DNA of 64,000 nt from Phyllobacterium myrsinacearum (GTDB lineage: Bacteria > Pseudomonadota > Alphaproteobacteria > Rhizobiales > Rhizobiaceae), in contig NZ_PVBT01000003.1 in NCBI RefSeq assembly GCF_002980555.1, positions 124,001 to 188,000 on the forward strand, read 5' to 3'. The notes beneath the pieces were generated by a model, which was not told the DNA's origin, ran no database searches, and saw nothing but the letters and a program-made list of their open reading frames with translations. Of the stretch, positions 41,590-53,562 are shown one piece after another (the stretch's first letter is position 1; each line of letters starts with the position of its first letter). The translations under genes were made by a program, and so were the position numbers.

Positions 41590-41608
41590 TTGGTGGAGCC
41601 AAGCGGGA
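41590..41608. repeat. Left attachment site (attL) of the island
   Basis: ttggtggagccaagcggga, an exact copy of the 3' end of tRNA-Ala at 53486-53504. No other tRNA sequence accompanies it, so it is the duplicated core left by integration. Confidence 0.9.
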
Positions 41609-41849: not shown

Positions 41850-43025
41850 TCACGCAGGCTTTTGAAGCGATATGATTGTTTCTGTACGCATTCGCTTACC
41901 AAGTTGCGATCCCGTAATTGGCAAATACCTATTGGTACTTGGAATTTCGCGCTCATATACGCCTTTAATCTCCAACCCTGTCGCAACCGCAGCACTAATA
42001 ACGGCTTGAGAATTACGTATAAAAACTCCCTTCAAGCAGGAATTTCCTACAACGAAAATTCCCGTGCCTCTCGGTTTCAAAACGCGTTCAACTTCTGAAA
42101 GCGAACGGCCCATGTCGTCGACATAGCGGAAAATCATATTACGATCCCGTTGAGGAAGATTTTGCAAATCTCCCATCTCCAGCATCACTTCGTCATTGTT
42201 CAAAGATGACGCTTTATCTGAAAGTGATTTCTCCGCTCCTATACTGCCAGAGCGAATTATCCGGAGTTCCGATATTGTATACCCTAACCAAACAAGCGCT
42301 AATTTATGCCCTCGCATATAATCTATGGCGTTAAGATATGGTGGAGATGTTACAACAGCATCAACAGAACACTCATCCACGTCCAAAAGGGAACGAGCAT
42401 CTCCTATAAAAGCTCTTCCGCTCCCGATCTGAGAGACTTCACTTAGCCTCTTTAGAATTTGGTTAACCGCTTTCTTAAATCCGCCGAATACGTCAAAATC
42501 ATTCTCCTGAGTTACTCGATGCGGGCGGCTGTGTGACGTGTCGCGAGCCAAAGATGCTGCACGCTCTTTCGTTACTATTATTCTGCTAAGCCCTAACTTT
42601 AACACATCTACTACTGCCGCAGAGTGCTTGCATATCGATATAGCGTAAGAAAGACGTCGCAGTTCTTGCTTCTGTCGTTCCGCGAACCAAAAGTCGACAA
42701 ACTTTAACGTTTCTTCATCGTTATCCAACCATTGAAGAACAAACGAGTTATTGGCCAGAGACATCGCCGCATCGACGATCGATGACAATGCTTCTGTCGC
42801 CTCAGCTACATCTGCTTTTGACGCCCATACGTTACTCATCAAAACGGCTAGAGGATCGACATCATAACCGATTGCTGAGTGGCCAAACTCGATTGCTTGT
42901 CGCAAAACAGTGCCGGAACCGACCATCGGATCGAGGACAACAGAATTACTTGGCAGATCGCCCATAGCCCGAAACGCCAGTTCTGGCGCCATTCTTGCGG
43001 GAAATGGATGAACTGGCTTTATCAT
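41850..43025 (-). CDS. DNA methyltransferase (probable N4-cytosine or N6-adenine), island cargo
   Basis: 391 aa. It opens with 'VHPFPARMAPELAFRAM', a signature of small DNA methylases; SAM-binding motif I 'LDPMVGSGT' is at 31-39 and catalytic motif IV 'TSPPY' at 226-230. TSPPY is most typical of N4-cytosine enzymes. Between the motifs lies a 190-residue insert, possibly target recognition. The start overlaps the ATPase stop by 4 nt (ATGA), so the two are made together. Likely role: protecting host DNA from the partner, as in restriction-modification. No separate specificity subunit is present. Confidence 0.87.
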   Translation of the reverse strand: MIKPVHPFPARMAPELAFRAMGDLPSNSVVLDPMVGSGTVLRQAIEFGHSAIGYDVDPLAVLMSNVWASKADVAEATEALSSIVDAAMSLANNSFVLQWLDNDEETLKFVDFWFAERQKQELRRLSYAISICKHSAAVVDVLKLGLSRIIVTKERAASLARDTSHSRPHRVTQENDFDVFGGFKKAVNQILKRLSEVSQIGSGRAFIGDARSLLDVDECSVDAVVTSPPYLNAIDYMRGHKLALVWLGYTISELRIIRSGSIGAEKSLSDKASSLNNDEVMLEMGDLQNLPQRDRNMIFRYVDDMGRSLSEVERVLKPRGTGIFVVGNSCLKGVFIRNSQAVISAAVATGLEIKGVYEREIPSTNRYLPITGSQLGKRMRTETIISLQKPA

Positions 43026-45646
43026 ACGCTCGTCTCCTGATCGGAATGCAATTTCTCAAGTTGCGCCGCTACTGCTGCTGCCACGCGTTCTGCCGATGCA
43101 TTTACAACAATTTTGTCATCGGTTATTCCAATGAGATCAGGCACCAAAATTTGCAAACCTCTTACAAGATTTATTACGTCGCTATCTCGTACGGTTGCAA
43201 CGCCTAACTCTTCACGACACGTGTAAGCAACGGTAGATGCAGCAAGCACATCGGGAACCTTGCCTTTTAAGGCCTCCAAGGCTCGAATAAATACATCTAT
43301 TGTTATTTTTCGCCCCTCGCTAAGCGTTTCTGCAAGTTTATCAACCCATTCAGTGAGTAATTTCGGATCCCTAAAGCCGAACATCTCTCGGAGTTTGGGA
43401 AGCGGTATTGCGCCGTATTCGACGGTATATTCAAGAAGTCGGCCAAGATCACTTGCTTTTATCGGAGTTATATTTCCGATCTCTGTGCAACGAGTTATCA
43501 AAGCACCCTCGCTAAACCCAGGCGCCACAACTAAAGCGTAATCCGCAGCGTAGCGCTTTCGGTGCTCGTTAATTCCATCAAGGCTAAGATTACCGGTTTT
43601 TGCAGTCTCACCCTTCGAGGACTTTGCATCGAATGTGAAGCTAAAAAGCGGCGGCTTCGGGTTTGCCTCGGTTGGATCTTGGTAGGTCGGATAGGGATAA
43701 GCACTCGCGATCCCCTCGGGTTCTCCAGACTTAGCCAGATCTCGGACAGTGAAACCCAGATATTGCAGAGCTTCAGAGACTGCCTTTTCGAGGCGCTGGC
43801 TATTTTCGCTTTCGTGTTGAGTTTGGAGCAAAATTTTCGCAATATGAGTCCCAGACTTTCGTGACTGAAGCGCTTTAAAACGCAGTAATTTGTCACGGTA
43901 TTCCCTCAGATCTTCAATCATCTTCGGTTCAATACCGATATTTACCGCATAAACGTCAGATAGAAGATTAACCATCGCGATAGTTCTAAGGAGCTCTTTC
44001 TCTGCTTTGGTTCTTGAATGTTCAGCGACAAACGGATGATCTTTATTTACAACAATTGTATTGTCAGAAATTCTGAACTTAGCAAAACTTTCGTCCCCGG
44101 TCTTCTCGTACTTAATTTGCCCAAGAGCATTTCTAATATTATCTGACGTGTTCTCCCGCCAAGAGTCACGTTTTTCCTCTCGGTTCACGATGCCGGTTTC
44201 ATCAAACAAACCCGTTACAACCGCCTTGGATTGCAAAGTATCCGAAACAACCGTCCTCAATGGATTAAGCGAAAGAACTCCAAGGGATTGAACCAATACG
44301 TCGCCACCATCAGGCATCGCTGATTGAGGATCACTGTCATAAAACGTACGAGCTTTATTGAACGCCCTCCTCAAGAAAGCTCTAAATATACGAAGCTCGC
44401 GCTTATCTAAGAACTGTTCGCGATTGGTCGTTAGAAATGGATTTAGGTCATCAGCCCGAACTGCCATTCGAAATCTCGCCCAAGCAGCGTGACTTAAGTT
44501 CTGTTCTCCAAAGCTTGGGTCATTCTGATTTACGACACGGCCAAGAACATTAACATGGAAGCCATTGGAGGCACCTCGCTCGTCGCTTTTACCTCCACTA
44601 ATTTTATCCTCAAACAAATAAACCGTACCTGTAACGCGACCTATTCCAGGTATTTCAGCATGAGGATACGGCGACGAATGTAACTTAATTGTGATCTTTT
44701 CAGCCTCCGCCGACTGGGATGAGTCAGCAGCACTCGTCTCAAGTTCAACGCTATCAAAATCCAGTTCCGGACCGATTACCCAAGTCTTCAATCTAGGAGT
44801 ATTTACCTTTGACGAGATTAATTTCTCACCATTAATCTGGATGCTCATCTCAGCTCCGAATGGCAGCGCTGATACCAACATCCTCCGCAAGGTCCCGAGC
44901 TTCAGCTCTCGCCCAGCGGGTTTTAATTCCGATAAAACGACAAGCGTCCAAGTTTGCTTTCTGTCTCGATCTAAGCTCGAAGAAGGAGCGCGGAATTCTT
45001 CCAACTCGAGATCAGCATCCTCATCCCCTGAGTTACCTAATGTAGTGTTCAACTTTTCGCTAATTAACTTCTTTATTTCCTCACCTCCCTCGATGTTATC
45101 GAGAGATTGATCAACCGTTTCTTGTGTAACTTCAAATACATCCAGGTCTATTTCGCTAATCAGACGATCAGAAGTTTTATCGCTTGTTTTTTCGACGGCA
45201 GAGTAATCCATGGTTACGCGGCGAATTATACCGTCTTCTGCTTTACAAATATAAGTCAATTTATTTGCAAGAAGATACGTTGCAAGTTTTCCAATACCAA
45301 ACTTGCCAACTACTCGCCTTCCAAATTGTTCAGGCCGACTTCTTTTCGGGGAAAATGCAATGTGCCAAAGTGTCTTTAACCCCTCCAAATCCATGGACGA
45401 ACCATTGTCCAAAACGCACATAGTCGCACTGGATGTAGAGAGATCCACGGGAATGCGGACATCGACCCAATCGGCACCCGCGTCCCATCCATTTGAGATT
45501 AGCTCTTCAAATGCTTTTTGGGGCGATGAATACAACTGTTCGCTAAAATGCTCGAGAAATCGAGTGCCGATCTCAACCGAGATCTTTTCTTTTAAACTAC
45601 CGATTTCATCTGGCAGCTTGCCTGCCGTGACCGTATTGGCGTCCAT
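43022..45646 (-). CDS. GHKL ATPase with C-terminal PD-(D/E)XK-like nuclease region, island cargo
   Basis: 874 aa. Bergerat-fold motifs are clear: N-box 'FEELISNGWDAGAD' (46-59), G1 'DNGSSMD' (80-86), G2 'GKFGIGK' (114-120), as in Hsp90, MutL and MORC. An S5-like transducer region follows (about 230-430, ending 'FLTTNREQFLD'). A nuclease-like core lies near 618-700: helix 'EKAVSEALQYLGF', 'SGEPEG' (640-645) and 'FTFDAKSS' with D673/K675. The rest has no match I can name. First gene of an operon with a DNA methyltransferase. This looks like an ATP-dependent restriction protein; no named system is claimed. Confidence 0.8.
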   Translation of the reverse strand: MDANTVTAGKLPDEIGSLKEKISVEIGTRFLEHFSEQLYSSPQKAFEELISNGWDAGADWVDVRIPVDLSTSSATMCVLDNGSSMDLEGLKTLWHIAFSPKRSRPEQFGRRVVGKFGIGKLATYLLANKLTYICKAEDGIIRRVTMDYSAVEKTSDKTSDRLISEIDLDVFEVTQETVDQSLDNIEGGEEIKKLISEKLNTTLGNSGDEDADLELEEFRAPSSSLDRDRKQTWTLVVLSELKPAGRELKLGTLRRMLVSALPFGAEMSIQINGEKLISSKVNTPRLKTWVIGPELDFDSVELETSAADSSQSAEAEKITIKLHSSPYPHAEIPGIGRVTGTVYLFEDKISGGKSDERGASNGFHVNVLGRVVNQNDPSFGEQNLSHAAWARFRMAVRADDLNPFLTTNREQFLDKRELRIFRAFLRRAFNKARTFYDSDPQSAMPDGGDVLVQSLGVLSLNPLRTVVSDTLQSKAVVTGLFDETGIVNREEKRDSWRENTSDNIRNALGQIKYEKTGDESFAKFRISDNTIVVNKDHPFVAEHSRTKAEKELLRTIAMVNLLSDVYAVNIGIEPKMIEDLREYRDKLLRFKALQSRKSGTHIAKILLQTQHESENSQRLEKAVSEALQYLGFTVRDLAKSGEPEGIASAYPYPTYQDPTEANPKPPLFSFTFDAKSSKGETAKTGNLSLDGINEHRKRYAADYALVVAPGFSEGALITRCTEIGNITPIKASDLGRLLEYTVEYGAIPLPKLREMFGFRDPKLLTEWVDKLAETLSEGRKITIDVFIRALEALKGKVPDVLAASTVAYTCREELGVATVRDSDVINLVRGLQILVPDLIGITDDKIVVNASAERVAAAVAAQLEKLHSDQETSV

Positions 45647-45943
45647 TCAGTCCCCCCAAATTAAAACGCATGCCAAGACAAGCTTAGCGAAAGCGAAATT
45701 CCAAACACCTTTATCCTATTCGCGGTTAGCCTGACCACTGGCATTTGTCACTTTTAAGGGGAGAGCTAACTTAAAAAATAGAGCTCTTATATCTTGAACA
45801 TTGCCCTTGATAATGAAGAGTTATCCAAGTTGTTGATTGACGGTAAGCGCTGTTCTGGTCCCACTTCGTATGACCGATTGACAGCATCGCTTGACGTTCA
45901 TCGAGGTCAACAGCGATATTCTGACCGAGAGGAAACCCGCGTG
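45647..45943. promoter_or_regulatory. Divergent promoter region of the cargo operon
   Basis: 297 bp between the ATPase start and the DUF3885-like start. It must drive both. Open frames across it (for example 45771-46082 on the minus strand) lack ribosome sites and overlap the DUF3885-like gene. No clear operator is seen. Confidence 0.4.
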
Positions 45944-46507
45944 ATGCATTCGGATACGTCGATAAAGCCAGACTTTGAACGCGAATGGTCTTCATTCCAC
46001 GCCAATCGAAGGCCATTGGGCTGGATGCTTCGATCGGACAAGTCGTTGGCATGGGTCCGGTTTCATTCGTTACCGAACTCAAAACGATATCCGGAGAACG
46101 AAGCCGAGGAAGGCATTATCCTCAGTCGAGCCTATAGCCTCGGGAATGCGACATTGGGAACGGATGCCAGTTGCTGGCAGATTGAATGCCGCGCAAAAGA
46201 GGTAAACTCACCATATTGGAATGCTCCTGTGGGCGGCACAACAGCAACGACATTTGCTGATGACGACGAGACGCAGTGGTGTGCAAATGTTTTAGAAACT
46301 CACTGGCGGCAAGGCACCCTAGATTGCATTTTACTGGCAATCGCTAACGATAAGACGGGACCGACGATGTGGATGGACCGGAAAACCGGAAGGATTTTTG
46401 CTCCATACGATGGCGGTTTCGACCTGTTGGTGTCATCGCCAGAGGAGGTTGAGCAGTTGAGGGTACGGTTTGGCGATTGGCTGTCTGATCATCCCGAAGG
46501 TCTGTGA
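45944..46507 (+). CDS. DUF3885-like protein
   Basis: 187 aa from ATG 45944; a longer frame to 45794 exists. 'LAWVRFHSLPNSKRYPENEAEEGIILSRAYSLGNATLG' and the C-terminal 'WMDRKTGRIFAPYDGGFDLLVSSPEEVEQLRVRFGDWLSDHPEGL' match what I recall of DUF3885, a family of unknown function that often lies near toxin/immunity or mobile genes. Divergent from the ATPase-methyltransferase operon. Confidence 0.6.
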   Translation: MHSDTSIKPDFEREWSSFHANRRPLGWMLRSDKSLAWVRFHSLPNSKRYPENEAEEGIILSRAYSLGNATLGTDASCWQIECRAKEVNSPYWNAPVGGTTATTFADDDETQWCANVLETHWRQGTLDCILLAIANDKTGPTMWMDRKTGRIFAPYDGGFDLLVSSPEEVEQLRVRFGDWLSDHPEGL

Positions 46508-47493: not shown

Positions 47494-47564
47494 GTTGGTT
47501 TATAGTAATTGCACTCACTGCTGCACACAGGCGTAGCCACGTACACACTGATGTGGAGTGTGGC

Positions 47565-47900
47565 ATGGACGATCTTCGGACGAGATTTGGACGTTTGGTT
47601 GCTGTTCATCGGCGTAAAGCCGGTATGACACAGGATGCGCTTGCCGAAGCTGCAGGTGTCAGCGTGGACATGATTTCAAAGATTGAGACGGGTGCGTCGG
47701 GTGCGCGGTTTCCTCTGATTGAACGCCTTGCTCAGGCGCTAAGTGTTGATCCAGCCGAATTTTTCACAGCAGAGCTGCCGTCGCAAACAAATCGTAATCC
47801 ACTGCTCAGCTCAATTAATGTCACTCTAGCGGGGCTGGACCAGAAAAACCTACTCTGGATCAACGGCCTTATCAAAGCAGCGCTAAATCAGAAGAAGTGA
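47565..47900 (+). CDS. Xre-family transcriptional regulator
   Basis: 111 aa from ATG 47565 (an ATG at 47553 is possible). HTH 'MTQDALAEAAGVSVDMISKIETGASGARFPLIERLAQAL' occupies residues 21-60; the C-terminal 50 residues are of unknown fold. Upstream lies the 16-bp inverted repeat. It may control island genes, perhaps as the maintenance/excision switch. Its stop abuts the convergent recombinase stop. Confidence 0.87.
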   Translation: MDDLRTRFGRLVAVHRRKAGMTQDALAEAAGVSVDMISKIETGASGARFPLIERLAQALSVDPAEFFTAELPSQTNRNPLLSSINVTLAGLDQKNLLWINGLIKAALNQKK

Positions 47901-49040
47901 CTACAGCAAGCGGCCGATGGCAGCATCGGTGAACAGATCGGTATCACGGATGTATCGGGCAAGGCTTGCTTCGGCTCGATGACCAGTGGTTTGTCTAATC
48001 TTATGGCTCGATGCGCCAGCCTGAGCAGCAGATGTAGCAAAGCCCGCTCTAAGCGAATGACCGGAAAACGGTAATGGGTCATAACCCGCATCGTAAATCC
48101 TTGTCTTTACCACAAAGCTTACGGCCTCTCCTGAAATCCTGCTTTTCGATATTTGACCGTGTTTATTAATCCTCACGAATATGGGGCCGTCATGTTGATT
48201 AAGGAGATCAAGCCAAGCTTTTAACGCGCCTACAGGACAATGCCGGGTTCTTCCGAATGGAACCGCAATTTTTCTGCCTTGGGCCTCTTGATCGGTTTTC
48301 GAACGGCGCAATGTGGCTAGCACTCCTTTAGAGACAAATTCGACATCCTCAATATTGAGTAAAGCAATTTCTGATCGTCGCATGGCGGTAGCAAATCCAA
48401 GCAACAGCAAGGCTCGATCCCGAATGTCTTTGGAACGATCTCCCAATTTATCGAGCATTGCGAATAGGTCATCGCGCAAGATTGCCGCCGCCTGTCTTTG
48501 CGCTATGCCATGCATTCGGCGGATACCGCGCATGGTTGATTTCACCAATTCTGATTTCACAGGATCTTCAATTCCAAGTGTACGGTGCGCCTTGGACAGG
48601 GAAGCGAGCCTACGCTGGATAGTGGCGACAGCGTATTGGCCTGCCATCTCTGCTAGATAATTGGCGACGTCGTGAGGTGTTGCCGGGATTACCCGATTAG
48701 TGGCTTCAAAATGCTCCATATCTGCCCTGTAGGCGCGTTTTGTATTATCGGAGATGGAATGAGAAAGAAAAGACTGAACCCTCGTGGAGGGCCCGATAAG
48801 ATAAGAGGTTTCAAAATTGCAATTAATTGCACTAGAGGCAGTATGATTTTGGGTTGTGCAATTAATTGCAATTTTTGCTGAGACCGGTTCAGAAATGCGT
48901 TTCACGGAACCATCAGAGGTTAACAAAGTGGAAGACAAATGATCCTCAGTCAGTTTCTGACGATTATTTATGATCCGGTGCGAAAGCTCGGAATTTCCTG
49001 CAATGTGCGGAATACGCAACGGGATAGCTCCATCCACCAT
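47901..49040 (-). CDS. Tyrosine recombinase (small, XerC/D-like)
   Basis: 379 aa from ATG 49040, which lies 1 nt after the upstream gene's stop with ggaagg just before it. Core-binding domain 'SDNTKRAYRADMEHFEAT' starts near residue 94; the catalytic domain has R in 'TAMRRSEIALL', 'HSLRAGFAT' (HxxR), the 'TGH' histidine, and Tyr in 'SLARYIRD'. Residues 1-90 have no known domain and are crossed by two identical palindromes; a later start cannot be excluded, but no ATG occurs before M28 of the core. A second recombinase besides the tRNA-side integrase. Confidence 0.85.
   Translation of the reverse strand: MVDGAIPLRIPHIAGNSELSHRIINNRQKLTEDHLSSTLLTSDGSVKRISEPVSAKIAINCTTQNHTASSAINCNFETSYLIGPSTRVQSFLSHSISDNTKRAYRADMEHFEATNRVIPATPHDVANYLAEMAGQYAVATIQRRLASLSKAHRTLGIEDPVKSELVKSTMRGIRRMHGIAQRQAAAILRDDLFAMLDKLGDRSKDIRDRALLLLGFATAMRRSEIALLNIEDVEFVSKGVLATLRRSKTDQEAQGRKIAVPFGRTRHCPVGALKAWLDLLNQHDGPIFVRINKHGQISKSRISGEAVSFVVKTRIYDAGYDPLPFSGHSLRAGFATSAAQAGASSHKIRQTTGHRAEASLARYIRDTDLFTDAAIGRLL
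48818..48870. repeat. Two identical 14-bp palindromes inside the recombinase gene
   Basis: tgcaattaattgca occurs at 48818-48831 and 48857-48870, 39 bp apart. Each is a perfect palindrome and each encodes an 'AINC' tetrapeptide in the recombinase frame. The half-site tgcaat recurs in the pair at 50441-50492. Confidence 0.8.
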
Positions 49041-49041
49041 A

Positions 49042-50151
49042 TCAGCGAACCTTCCGCGTGCGACGGAGTGTGAGTTCAGCACGCAGTTCGTTGAGATGCT
49101 CCAGATTGCGCGCGACCGCATTGATTAATTCATCGATGCCTGCTAACGGAAATCCAATCTTGGCGAAATCGCTCTCCCGCCCTAGCACTTCAAGGTCTTT
49201 ACAACCGTGCCACGTGAATTGCGGTGTCGTCGGTATCGCATCGACATAGTAAGCCGCCATGGCTGCTGCATCTTGCGCTCTGTAATCGGCCACCCAGCAG
49301 CTCAAGACTCTGGAAACATCCTCGTTCTCTACTGCAAAGCGACCGATAGCAGCTTTGCCAATGCGCGTATGCTTATCGAATGTATAGAGCGGGATGCCAG
49401 CAGCTTCTGCGGAATGGAGAGGCGCGTCTTCAATGATGTATGGGGCTTCTGGATTTTCCGTTGCAAATGCGGCCATCCACAAAGCGGGTGTCATGATGCA
49501 GATAGGATCATGCGTTTTGCCGCAGGCTATCATTGTTGCCGACAGGCATTGTTCTGGAGCGCCATGAGTGGCAAAGCTTTCCAAAAGATTTTTGAGGTCA
49601 CCCGTGCCGACACGCCGCTCATCGCTACAATCCAACCCTGATGCATACCATGTTGCAATGGCACGAGTGACAAGAGGCAATCGCATGTCACTGGACATGC
49701 CTATTCGCTTTTCGAGTGTCTGGCCGCCAACATAACAACGATCCTTTTCGAATGCGGGATGATGCCGCGCAGCGCAGACGAGATAATCGGGTGAGCGATC
49801 TTTGGGAGCAACGGCAAGAGCCCGCACCACATCCACGAGGACAGTTACGTCGTCGCCATGGCTGCGCCGCCAATCCCGGTCACTGGCCTTTGAGACCAAT
49901 ATCAACGTATCCGGCGAAGCAGGTCCGATATCCTCGAAAGCAATGATTAGAAATCGGCGCCAAATTGCCGCCCCGCGAAGCTGAAACAGCCGGAGCGCAG
50001 CCGCAACCGCGATATCGGTTTCACCTCTTCGAATGGCCTTATGCAACAAGCTGGATGCCACCCACGGATCAATGAGGCATATTGTATTCGTAGGGCTGGA
50101 GAAAAAAAGTTCAGCTTCTTCAGGATGGGGGTGATTTACATTTTGCGACAT
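49042..50151 (-). CDS. Protein related to the C-terminal region of MgsA/RarA
   Basis: 369 aa. 'SSLLHKAIRRGETDIAVAAALRLFQLRGAAIWRRFLIIAFEDIGPASPDTL' resembles the helical 'collar' region of MgsA/RarA AAA+ proteins (their 'R.L..ia.EDIGlAdp.al' stretch). The AAA+ ATPase part, with Walker motifs, is missing. The C-terminal 200 residues are not recognised. Its stop is 1 nt from the recombinase start, so both are translated together. A nested palindrome lies just upstream of its ATG. May act with DNA replication or recombination of the island. Confidence 0.55.
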   Translation of the reverse strand: MSQNVNHPHPEEAELFFSSPTNTICLIDPWVASSLLHKAIRRGETDIAVAAALRLFQLRGAAIWRRFLIIAFEDIGPASPDTLILVSKASDRDWRRSHGDDVTVLVDVVRALAVAPKDRSPDYLVCAARHHPAFEKDRCYVGGQTLEKRIGMSSDMRLPLVTRAIATWYASGLDCSDERRVGTGDLKNLLESFATHGAPEQCLSATMIACGKTHDPICIMTPALWMAAFATENPEAPYIIEDAPLHSAEAAGIPLYTFDKHTRIGKAAIGRFAVENEDVSRVLSCWVADYRAQDAAAMAAYYVDAIPTTPQFTWHGCKDLEVLGRESDFAKIGFPLAGIDELINAVARNLEHLNELRAELTLRRTRKVR

Positions 50152-50440: not shown

Positions 50441-50492
50441 GCGTGCAATCAATTGCACACGCCCTTTATGAAAAGTGCAATTGATTGCACGC
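50441..50492. repeat. 18-bp perfect inverted repeat made of tgcaat palindromes
   Basis: gcgtgcaatcaattgcac (50441-50458) and gtgcaattgattgcacgc (50475-50492) are exact reverse complements with 16 nt between. Each arm is itself nearly palindromic. It is in the 403-bp gap between the Rep-like gene and the MgsA-like gene and matches the half-site of the palindromes at 48818 and 48857. Candidate replication origin or operator; the rest of the gap (50186-50440, 50493-50554) shows nothing else. Confidence 0.8.
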
Positions 50493-51654: not shown

Positions 51655-53394
51655 CTATTCAAGGTTCTTGCTCTGATGAAGAAACATTAGATCCAAACCC
51701 TCATATGCAATCCCATTGACCCATTCTACATGCAAATCTGGATTACCGGGATCGCCATAATCATCACTAATAGCTTTTCCACTGGGAGACCAACCAGCTA
51801 TCGCCAACAAAGTTTCAGAGGGCGCTTTTATACGCCGCAATGCGTCTCGCACATTATGCCGCAAACTATAAAGGCTTTGACGCTGTCCCAACTCTATTTC
51901 TTCTGGAATAAAATGCTCATTTAGCCGCCGTGCTGCATACCAGGCGCAATTACCGTATTTATTAGGTATCAATCCCCAGAAAAGACGTTGCCCATTTTTC
52001 GACGCCGCATCGTTTCGTGTCTTCACAAACTCAACCAACCCGATCTTGAGCAATTCAGAATGCACCGGCACTCGTCGACGACTGCTTTCTGTTTTCAGAC
52101 TTTTTGCGTCCTCTCCACCCCCCTCAGCAAGATCTAGATACCACGTACCCTTGTCTGTTTGCTTCAAGTCGGAGAAGTGCAGTTGGGCAACTTCGTTCGG
52201 CCTCGCACCGCTAAAAAGCATAATCAGCGGTAACCAGAACCGCCACTCCCGATCCGCTTTGGTATAAGGTTTCAGCGCGCTCGGAACGCAACGGTGATAG
52301 AATTTTCCCTCAAAGAAGCCTTTTAACTGATGATGCGTCCACGGAAGCCGCTTTTGGTCTGACGCAACATTATCCTTTTTAAGAGGGCGGGCTTCAGCCG
52401 CAGGGTTATTTGACAATAACTTCTTGCGCAACGCGACTTTGAGCATATCCCTGAACACATCAAGATAGTTCGACTGCGAAAGCGGGGAGAGAATTGACCC
52501 TCCGTTGGATTGTGAGCGAAGGATAGCATCTTCAAGGGGCAGTCCGGGGAACCGCTTGTTTCTATTGGTTGGCAATTTCGCAAGCATACCGCGAACGTGT
52601 TGGACTAAGTCATCATCGATTGTTGCAACCATTTTTTCGCTACCGATAATCTCTTGCAGAGTTTCGACTATTGCCTTCACCTTGTCGAACCGCTTTTGGC
52701 TGACACCGTTTAAATGATACTCAGCTTCTCGTTCGGTGATGAAAATCTGCGCCAACTCAGAAAACGAGATAGAAGAAGAACGACTTGGGTTAAACAAATG
52801 GTCATAAAACAGGCGATCGTGCCGATCGTCATACCTATCGATTTTTTTACGTTGTACCTCAACCAGCCCTCGCCGTACGATCTCAGCAAAATCCCAATAT
52901 GTTTCTGAAGCGACGTTCGATGCGCCCGCCTCTTTTAAAAGTTGATGAGTCGCGTCACTTACCCATCCATCTCGCGTCGGGTCGCCGTAGCTGGTTAAAA
53001 TGCCAAGCTCTATTTTAGCATTCTGTTTTCTCTCATACAGATCGTCGCTATCTTCGGGCGGATCCATCAAAAACTGCGCAGCGCTCCTTTTGTCCAACTT
53101 CTGGACCGTCAAGCGCACATGTTCCGTCAGCATGTGAAGTGAAATATCTTGCAGTTTCGATGAGCCCGCTTTGCTCGGTGAGTTTTGAGTTTCCTCAAGA
53201 GAGGCAAAAAGCGCATCCGTTTTTACATCTTCGATGGCTCGTAAGCGCTTGGCGTCAGCACGACTCGTTACACCAAGCGACCGCTTAATGAACGTTCGGC
53301 CAAGTGCGTCAACGAGATGTTTGGGCACACGCCGATAATAGTGCCAAACCTCACCGCGCTTTTGAAGATGGAGGGTTTCTGACACTAGCTTCAT
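51655..53394 (-). CDS. Site-specific tyrosine integrase of the island
   Basis: 579 aa, larger than typical integrases. N-terminal DUF6538-like segment ('LHLQKRGEVWHYYRRVPKHL'), long middle region, core-binding domain around 215-330, catalytic domain from about 370: R in 'SGARPNEVAQL', K in 'SLKTESSRRRVPVH', 'LRHNVRDAL' (HxxR), W in 'IAGWS', and Tyr in 'SDDYGDPG'. It lies 92 nt from the tRNA-Ala it uses as attachment site, reading away from it. Confidence 0.92.
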   Translation of the reverse strand: MKLVSETLHLQKRGEVWHYYRRVPKHLVDALGRTFIKRSLGVTSRADAKRLRAIEDVKTDALFASLEETQNSPSKAGSSKLQDISLHMLTEHVRLTVQKLDKRSAAQFLMDPPEDSDDLYERKQNAKIELGILTSYGDPTRDGWVSDATHQLLKEAGASNVASETYWDFAEIVRRGLVEVQRKKIDRYDDRHDRLFYDHLFNPSRSSSISFSELAQIFITEREAEYHLNGVSQKRFDKVKAIVETLQEIIGSEKMVATIDDDLVQHVRGMLAKLPTNRNKRFPGLPLEDAILRSQSNGGSILSPLSQSNYLDVFRDMLKVALRKKLLSNNPAAEARPLKKDNVASDQKRLPWTHHQLKGFFEGKFYHRCVPSALKPYTKADREWRFWLPLIMLFSGARPNEVAQLHFSDLKQTDKGTWYLDLAEGGGEDAKSLKTESSRRRVPVHSELLKIGLVEFVKTRNDAASKNGQRLFWGLIPNKYGNCAWYAARRLNEHFIPEEIELGQRQSLYSLRHNVRDALRRIKAPSETLLAIAGWSPSGKAISDDYGDPGNPDLHVEWVNGIAYEGLDLMFLHQSKNLE

Positions 53395-53486
53395 GCCTCT
53401 TGTATACCACGTGCGTGACCAAAAGGCAGATCGTAAGTAACTGTAATCACTTCACAGTTAATGAAATCACTATCTTAAGAGGGTGT

Positions 53487-53562
<76 letters not shown>

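Follow-up and report, generated by a model that had tools for sequence, protein, structure and literature searches.

GHKL ATPases have been linked to restriction-modification (RM) since 2008, when Iyer, Abhiman and Aravind described them in such systems and, from gene context, predicted a role in restriction for MORC-like members (PMC2292703; this and the other papers cited are represented here by excerpts). The MORC and paraMORC1-5 operons treated there combine a GHKL + S5 module with methylase neighbours and lateral spread, paraMORC3 adds a C-terminal nuclease of the restriction endonuclease (RE) fold, and ATP-driven DNA looping was proposed for MORC and paraMORC proteins (PMC2292703). In a second described group, BbrUII/HgiDII (NCBIfam NF050001), an N-terminal GHKL ATPase precedes a nuclease-like C-terminus, with an adjacent DNA methyltransferase gene in its phage member; M.HgiDII and M.BbrUII are 5-methylcytosine (m5C) methylases (PMC5867850, excerpt). 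The subject of this report is a two-gene locus in a stretch of 64,000 nucleotides (nt) from Phyllobacterium myrsinacearum (contig NZ_PVBT01000003.1, positions 124,001 to 188,000; hereafter the window), which encodes a fusion of a GHKL ATPase with a PD-(D/E)XK nuclease (P0001) and a DNA methyltransferase (P0002). Judged by its sequence, the pair represents a genuine, widely distributed and apparently unnamed family, a relative of the known GHKL-carrying restriction systems, and it is probably an ATP-gated, type II-like RM system.

Relatives of the pair came to light by way of a single intermediate. Single-sequence scans of genome contigs and viral contigs with P0001 returned no relatives, and a weak three-row nuclease alignment gave no match among the viral contigs. 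A profile of the C-terminal part, run against 385 genomes of the class, returned one relative besides the window, in genome G735: a protein of 852 amino acids (aa), 39% identical to P0001, with a methyltransferase 46% identical to P0002 directly after it. The two-row alignment of P0001 with the G735 protein served as the family query, and with it the GTDB species genomes yielded 62 loci and the viral contigs four. Of the former, 61 are taken as family (L137 matches in the ATPase part only), and of the latter, three. The loci examined number 65, three of them viral. L141 holds no open reading frame matching the family profile, and L082 and L135, though labelled differently, agree in coordinates and scores. 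Alignment A5 (56 rows) comprises the window and 55 of the 65 loci, with L083, L100, L102, L108, L110, L123, L130, L133, L135 and L137 left out as broken, split, cut off, near copies or not family; the nuclease-region set A6 keeps 50 of these 56, without L089, L091, L109, L111, L117 and L118.

All told, the family spans many bacterial and archaeal phyla. Relatives at 52-65% identity include Burkholderia, Asticcacaulis, Xanthobacter and Afipia, and distant ones (~28-40%) include Streptomyces, Clostridia, Bacteroidota, Methanolobus and uncultured archaea; with many of the loci coming from metagenome bins, some of the phyla may be mislabelled. On a 56-row ATPase-nuclease tree built by a quick method, the phylum labels (52 rows) need 21 changes. 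Closer to home, full-length P0001 is found in one of 21 genus genomes, the window's own, and one other matches in the ATPase part. Among 397 order genomes, 22 contain matches to P0001, 21 of them confined to residues 16-181, and there is no other full-length match.

A preliminary description of the locus had proposed an 874-aa Bergerat-fold ATPase with a PD-(D/E)XK-like region, overlapping by 4 nt with a methyltransferase. Both reading frames were recovered as described, on the minus strand and with the 4-nt overlap (Table 1). The ATPase assignment is borne out by a Pfam match of residues 40-164 to HATPase_c_3 (E=1.5e-16; 61.1 bits, cut-off 25) and by motif residues E48, N52, D55, D80, G82, G114, G117, G119 and K120, invariant in all 56 aligned members. 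Downstream of this domain lies a transducer region, probably of the S5 fold going by the domain description in PMC2292703. Set against the S5-domain motif of MORC proteins, GhXhhpXXRhl, G362 and R370 are invariant in 56/56 members and correctly spaced, while by eye residues 366-367 of the window protein (N, V) do not suit h and p. In the PDB the whole of P0001 gave weak matches, with the Hsp90 type among the matches listed (best E=0.048). None of the models in Pfam, PADLOC (2023) or NCBIfam matches the protein over its full length, in keeping with the earlier statement that this exact pair was not recognised as a named system.

The nuclease-like region noted earlier also held up: conserved motifs and profile homology support a PD-(D/E)XK domain at residues 600-745. 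E620 is kept throughout the 56 aligned members; position 644 holds D (31 members) or E (25), position 673 likewise D (49) or E (7), and K675 and H695 are each present in 55. The profile of the 50-member nuclease-region set matches HindIII in the PDB (E=0.0017), and hhalign of the region against a Staphylococcus plasmid 'restriction endonuclease' that lies above the Mrr_cat Pfam cut-off gives 98.6%. Compared singly with Pfam, 18 of the 50 members match Mrr_cat (best 2.8e-5), seven FokI_cleav_dom (best 2.5e-4) and six DUF2130. By these comparisons the P0001 nuclease is Mrr/FokI/HindIII-like. A related Mrr/FokI-like nuclease domain occurs in a protein of Gordonia plasmid p174 (L024:4591-6825; blastp E=2e-13, a single comparison), whose gene adjoins genes annotated as TnsA-like, Mu transposase C-terminal and AAA ATPase.

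How close, then, does P0001 come to the described GHKL systems? Its match to NF050001 covers residues 26-160 only, at 56.5 bits against a curated cut-off of 550 bits, so membership in BbrUII/HgiDII was rejected; a phage protein deposited as ParaMORC3 (PV340563.1; P0012), the positive control, scores 751 bits. P0001, P0008 and P0010 all match that model in the ATPase part alone (53-60 bits), and the best of the 56 members reaches E=3.4e-22, far from a full match. The nucleases differ as well, the nuclease profile giving 0.2% in hhalign against the phage ParaMORC3 protein versus 98.6% against the Mrr_cat protein, and so do the methylases, which are of the m5C type there and of the N6/N4 type in the window. 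In Escherichia phage PhiR44_1 (L030:7986-9944), the gene deposited as ParaMORC3 adjoins one annotated Dcm, among phage structural genes. With the MORC and paraMORC operons the family shares a GHKL module followed by an S5-like region, methylase neighbours and lateral spread, and the looping model put forward for MORC-type ATPases would fit it. The RE-fold domain of paraMORC3 is described with E-D-ExK; the family has the pattern E, D/E, D/E-x-K, and its nuclease profile shows no homology to the corresponding part of the deposited ParaMORC3 protein.

Other relatives share parts of the plan. VcSduA, a Shedu protein with a GHKL N-terminus, likewise joins the ATPase to a C-terminal PD-(D/E)XK nuclease in one polypeptide, but its nuclease is DUF4263, and the excerpt of PMC12137116 mentions no paired methylase. 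Shedu membership was rejected, since neither P0001 nor the 50 nuclease regions match DUF4263/SduA in Pfam at E<=1. Membership in MZA was rejected too, as neither the equivalog score for MzaB nor the MZA gene set was matched. The three-gene CglI/NgoAVII RM systems differ in having a nuclease of the phospholipase D (PLD) type and, as ATPase, a DEAD helicase in a separate protein (PMC4267653, excerpt).

P0002 carries DPMVGSGT at residues 32-39 and TSPPY at 226-230, the motifs on which it had been called a methyltransferase, and that call is upheld by a match to N6_N4_Mtase in Pfam (E=1.2e-8). Many PADLOC MTase_II models match as well, the best at 91.8 bits. The SPPY form of the catalytic motif may favour N4-cytosine. 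Motif order and TSPPY together suggest that P0002 modifies N4-cytosine or N6-adenine. Any match to P0002 is found in just 26 of the 397 order genomes, a rough background for the pairing described below, and eight viral loci carry P0002-like methylases, one of them on the contig of L138.

Methyltransferase genes or fragments adjoin the ATPase-nuclease gene in 57 of the 65 loci (fragments in the case of L083), so the pairing noted at the outset is conserved and the homologues are not mostly alone. In 53 of the 57 the two genes share a strand, and the gap between them ranges from -125 to +206 nt, with 44 falling between -13 and +27 nt; the remaining four are convergent. Methylases of five groups act as partner. 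By profile, the 57 sort into t1, the P0002-like enzymes, in 28 loci; t2, with the HxYPAKF-type t2b, in 24, including the L083 fragment; t3 (~300 aa, SPPY first) in two; and t4 (~240 aa, convergent) in three. Outside this count stand L087, L089, L093, L097, L125, L130, L133 and L137. In L093 a C5 cytosine methylase gene lies 119 nt downstream, L125 and L130 lie at contig ends, the ATPase of L133 is cut to 147 aa beside a gene that is transposase-like by eye, and L137, as noted, is an ATPase-domain match. Apart from the methylase, no gene family recurs in more than seven of 52 neighbourhoods (nearest gene on each side; clustering of 99 near genes).

The two proteins diverge together. Their distances correlate at Mantel r=0.76 for 26 type-1 pairs and 0.77 for 20 type-2 pairs, with 0 of 5000 permutations as high, a correlation to which shared descent contributes. 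Partners are also exchanged alongside this co-divergence. The nearest relative of the window methylase (58%) belongs to L095, where the ATPase-nuclease is just 37% identical to P0001; in L077 the ATPase-nuclease is 64% identical to the window's and the methylase 52%. On the 56-row tree, methylase types t1-t4 need four changes, or eight if absence is counted as a state. One locus, L087 (7899-10547), is damaged in both halves: it is the sole aligned member with R at K675 and R at H695, and its adjoining methylase has decayed to a 31-bit fragment. Such joint decay of nuclease site and methylase is what a restriction system predicts, albeit in one case.

GHKL proteins beside DNA methylases are also a feature of the HEF_HK / Response_reg_2 elements, which differ in having a kinase-like second ATPase domain and a further protein where the nuclease would be (PMC8011034, excerpt). 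A methylase that resembles type 2 by eye sits with an HEF_HK-like GHKL protein in Allorhizobium and genome G066, and in two Flavobacterium loci an ATPase-nuclease pair and an HEF_HK-like protein occur together. Related 741-aa proteins lie directly downstream of the pair at L116:10468-12690 and L128:10478-12700, and that of L116 has two GHKL-type ATPase domains, like HEF_HK. On a plasmid of Allorhizobium pseudoryzae (L029:3046-9185), the gene for a P0002-like methylase diverges from an operon that encodes a further SPPY methylase, a double-GHKL protein and a protein of 409 aa.

An 11.9-kb island at a tRNA-Ala gene carries the pair as its left-most cargo (Table 1), a placement that the preliminary description had given and that exact 19-bp repeats and an empty site now confirm. 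The empty site, in genome G779 of the same genus (L152), is clean: its flanks, 87% identical to the window on the left and 98% on the right, overlap by exactly one copy of the repeat. G+C content is 0.44-0.47 in the pair and 0.55-0.62 in 1-kb bins outside the island. Within the island lie a second tyrosine recombinase of XerD/phage type (window 47901-49121) and a HipB/RstR-like helix-turn-helix regulator (47553-47900), and together they suggest a composite element. The gene for a 369-aa protein (49042-50151), which matches the MgsA/RarA C-terminal model weakly and AAA+ not at all, overlaps the recombinase gene, and a DUF3885 protein (45794-46507; E=1.8e-30) is encoded upstream of the pair on the other strand. 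The 14-bp palindrome TGCAATTAATTGCA and its one-base variants, at 48818-48831, 48857-48870, 50444-50457 and 50476-50489, form two pairs spaced 39 and 32 bp and may be regulator or recombinase sites.

Table 1. Features of the ATPase-nuclease/methyltransferase pair and its island (window coordinates)
Feature	Position	Strand	Basis
GHKL ATPase - PD-(D/E)XK nuclease fusion (P0001), 874 aa	43022..45646	-	Open reading frame, Pfam, conserved motifs
GHKL/Bergerat ATPase domain, residues ~28-165	45152..45565	-	N-box E48/N52/D55, D80-N81-G82, G114-KFGIGK-120
S5-like transducer region, residues ~226-430	44357..44971	-	W233, T234, K280, G362, R370 invariant; S5 assignment inferred
PD-(D/E)XK nuclease domain, residues 600-745	43412..43849	-	E620, P643-E644, D673-A674-K675, H695; profile homology
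C-terminal region past nuclease, residues 746-874	43025..43411	-	Alignments, identity profile
DNA methyltransferase (P0002), 391 aa	41850..43025	-	HPFPARMAP, DPMVGSGT, ASLARDTSHSRPHR, TSPPY
Left 19-bp att repeat copy	41590..41608	+	Exact repeat; empty site
Right 19-bp att repeat copy, 3' end of tRNA-Ala	53486..53504	+	Exact repeat; empty site
tRNA-Ala (ggc), integration target	53487..53562	-	
Integrase-like gene beside tRNA, probable island integrase	51655..53394	-	DUF6538 E=7.7e-15; weak phage-integrase match E=0.052

The observed architecture, conserved active sites, conserved pairing, co-divergence, partner exchange and mobility can be accommodated in a simple scheme. Within a short sequence of the host DNA, the methyltransferase would modify a base at its exocyclic amino group, as its SPPY motif and Pfam match suggest, and P0001 would be the restriction enzyme. 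By analogy with Hsp90, MutL and MORC, the GHKL module would bind ATP and probably dimerise. ATP binding may then close a dimer clamp on DNA, bringing two Mrr/FokI-like PD-(D/E)XK domains together and licensing them, and the paired domains would cut DNA that lacks the methyl mark. Overlapping genes on a tRNA-targeting island would keep both parts together, and the pair would presumably act against phage. The nuclease probably recognises its target by itself, since a single nuclease family is combined with methylases of different kinds, an m5C enzyme among them. The preliminary description had called GHKL ATPases rare as restriction motors. The rarity does not stand, as GHKL ATPases in RM are an established theme (PMC2292703, excerpt; NCBIfam BbrUII/HgiDII), and a clamp or switch seems likelier than a motor; the novelty accordingly lies in the family and its nuclease type, not in the concept.

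Several observations weigh against an RM system of this kind. No target-recognition domain was identified in P0001, and its two variable stretches (residues ~151-225 and ~301-325, by sliding identity among ten close members) gave no case for one. Taken alone, its nuclease region matches no nuclease model at E<=1, and it has E at the usual D position 644, as do 25 of the 56 members. Moreover, L089 and L097 combine an intact nuclease site with no methylase recognised nearby, their flanks being judged by four methylase profiles and by eye, and L083, from a metagenome bin, has intact nuclease motifs beside a broken methylase; if cutting were unconditional, all three should be toxic. The four methylase profiles behind the figure of 57 in 65 were seeded from the same loci, with t3 and t4 found by inspecting neighbours and without a random-gene control. 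Close relatives of P0002 are also found without an ATPase-nuclease partner, on the Allorhizobium plasmid and in genome G312.

Three other explanations deserve consideration. More members match Mrr_cat (18/50) than any other Pfam family, and Mrr-like enzymes can be modification-dependent (PMC11279042, excerpt), so the domain might cut foreign-modified DNA in the manner of type IV enzymes, with the methylase marking or regulating. A type IV nuclease can do without a methylase, yet one adjoins the gene in 57 of 65 loci; the two proteins also co-diverge, and the loss of the methylase in L087 is accompanied by decay of the nuclease. Many Mrr enzymes typically have a QxK motif, whereas the P0001 family has DAK, and a modification-dependent nuclease is on the whole improbable. 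Of similarly low probability is defence by an epigenetic mark without site-specific cutting, in which the methylase would mark self and phage would be met by BREX-like exclusion or ATPase-triggered abortive infection. An ATPase, a methylase and a nuclease are, after all, also the parts list of non-cutting systems, which counts in its favour. So does VcSduA, a GHKL-nuclease protein that protects against phage (PMC12137116, excerpt). However, PADLOC found no BREX or DISARM protein among the eight window proteins scanned, only the methylase recurs as a neighbour (others in <=7/52 neighbourhoods), and the nuclease site is conserved.

A MutL-like pair for repair or replication maintenance, with no part in defence, seems very unlikely, even though NCBIfam MutL models match up to seven of the 56 members (best E=5e-5) and Iyer et al. 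(2008) allowed non-RM roles for stand-alone paraMORC3 proteins (PMC2292703, excerpt). Against housekeeping speak the patchy spread (one of 21 genus genomes; no other full-length copy in 397 order genomes), the 21 phylum changes, the mobile island and the exchange of different methylases.

For the family as a whole, the pair marks an annotation gap, as NCBIfam, PADLOC (2023) and Pfam are all without a full-length model for P0001. It is also a compact system of two genes, with active-site residues established from 56 aligned members and with natural exchange of methylase partners, in which the role of ATP, be it gate, loop or clamp, is directly testable.

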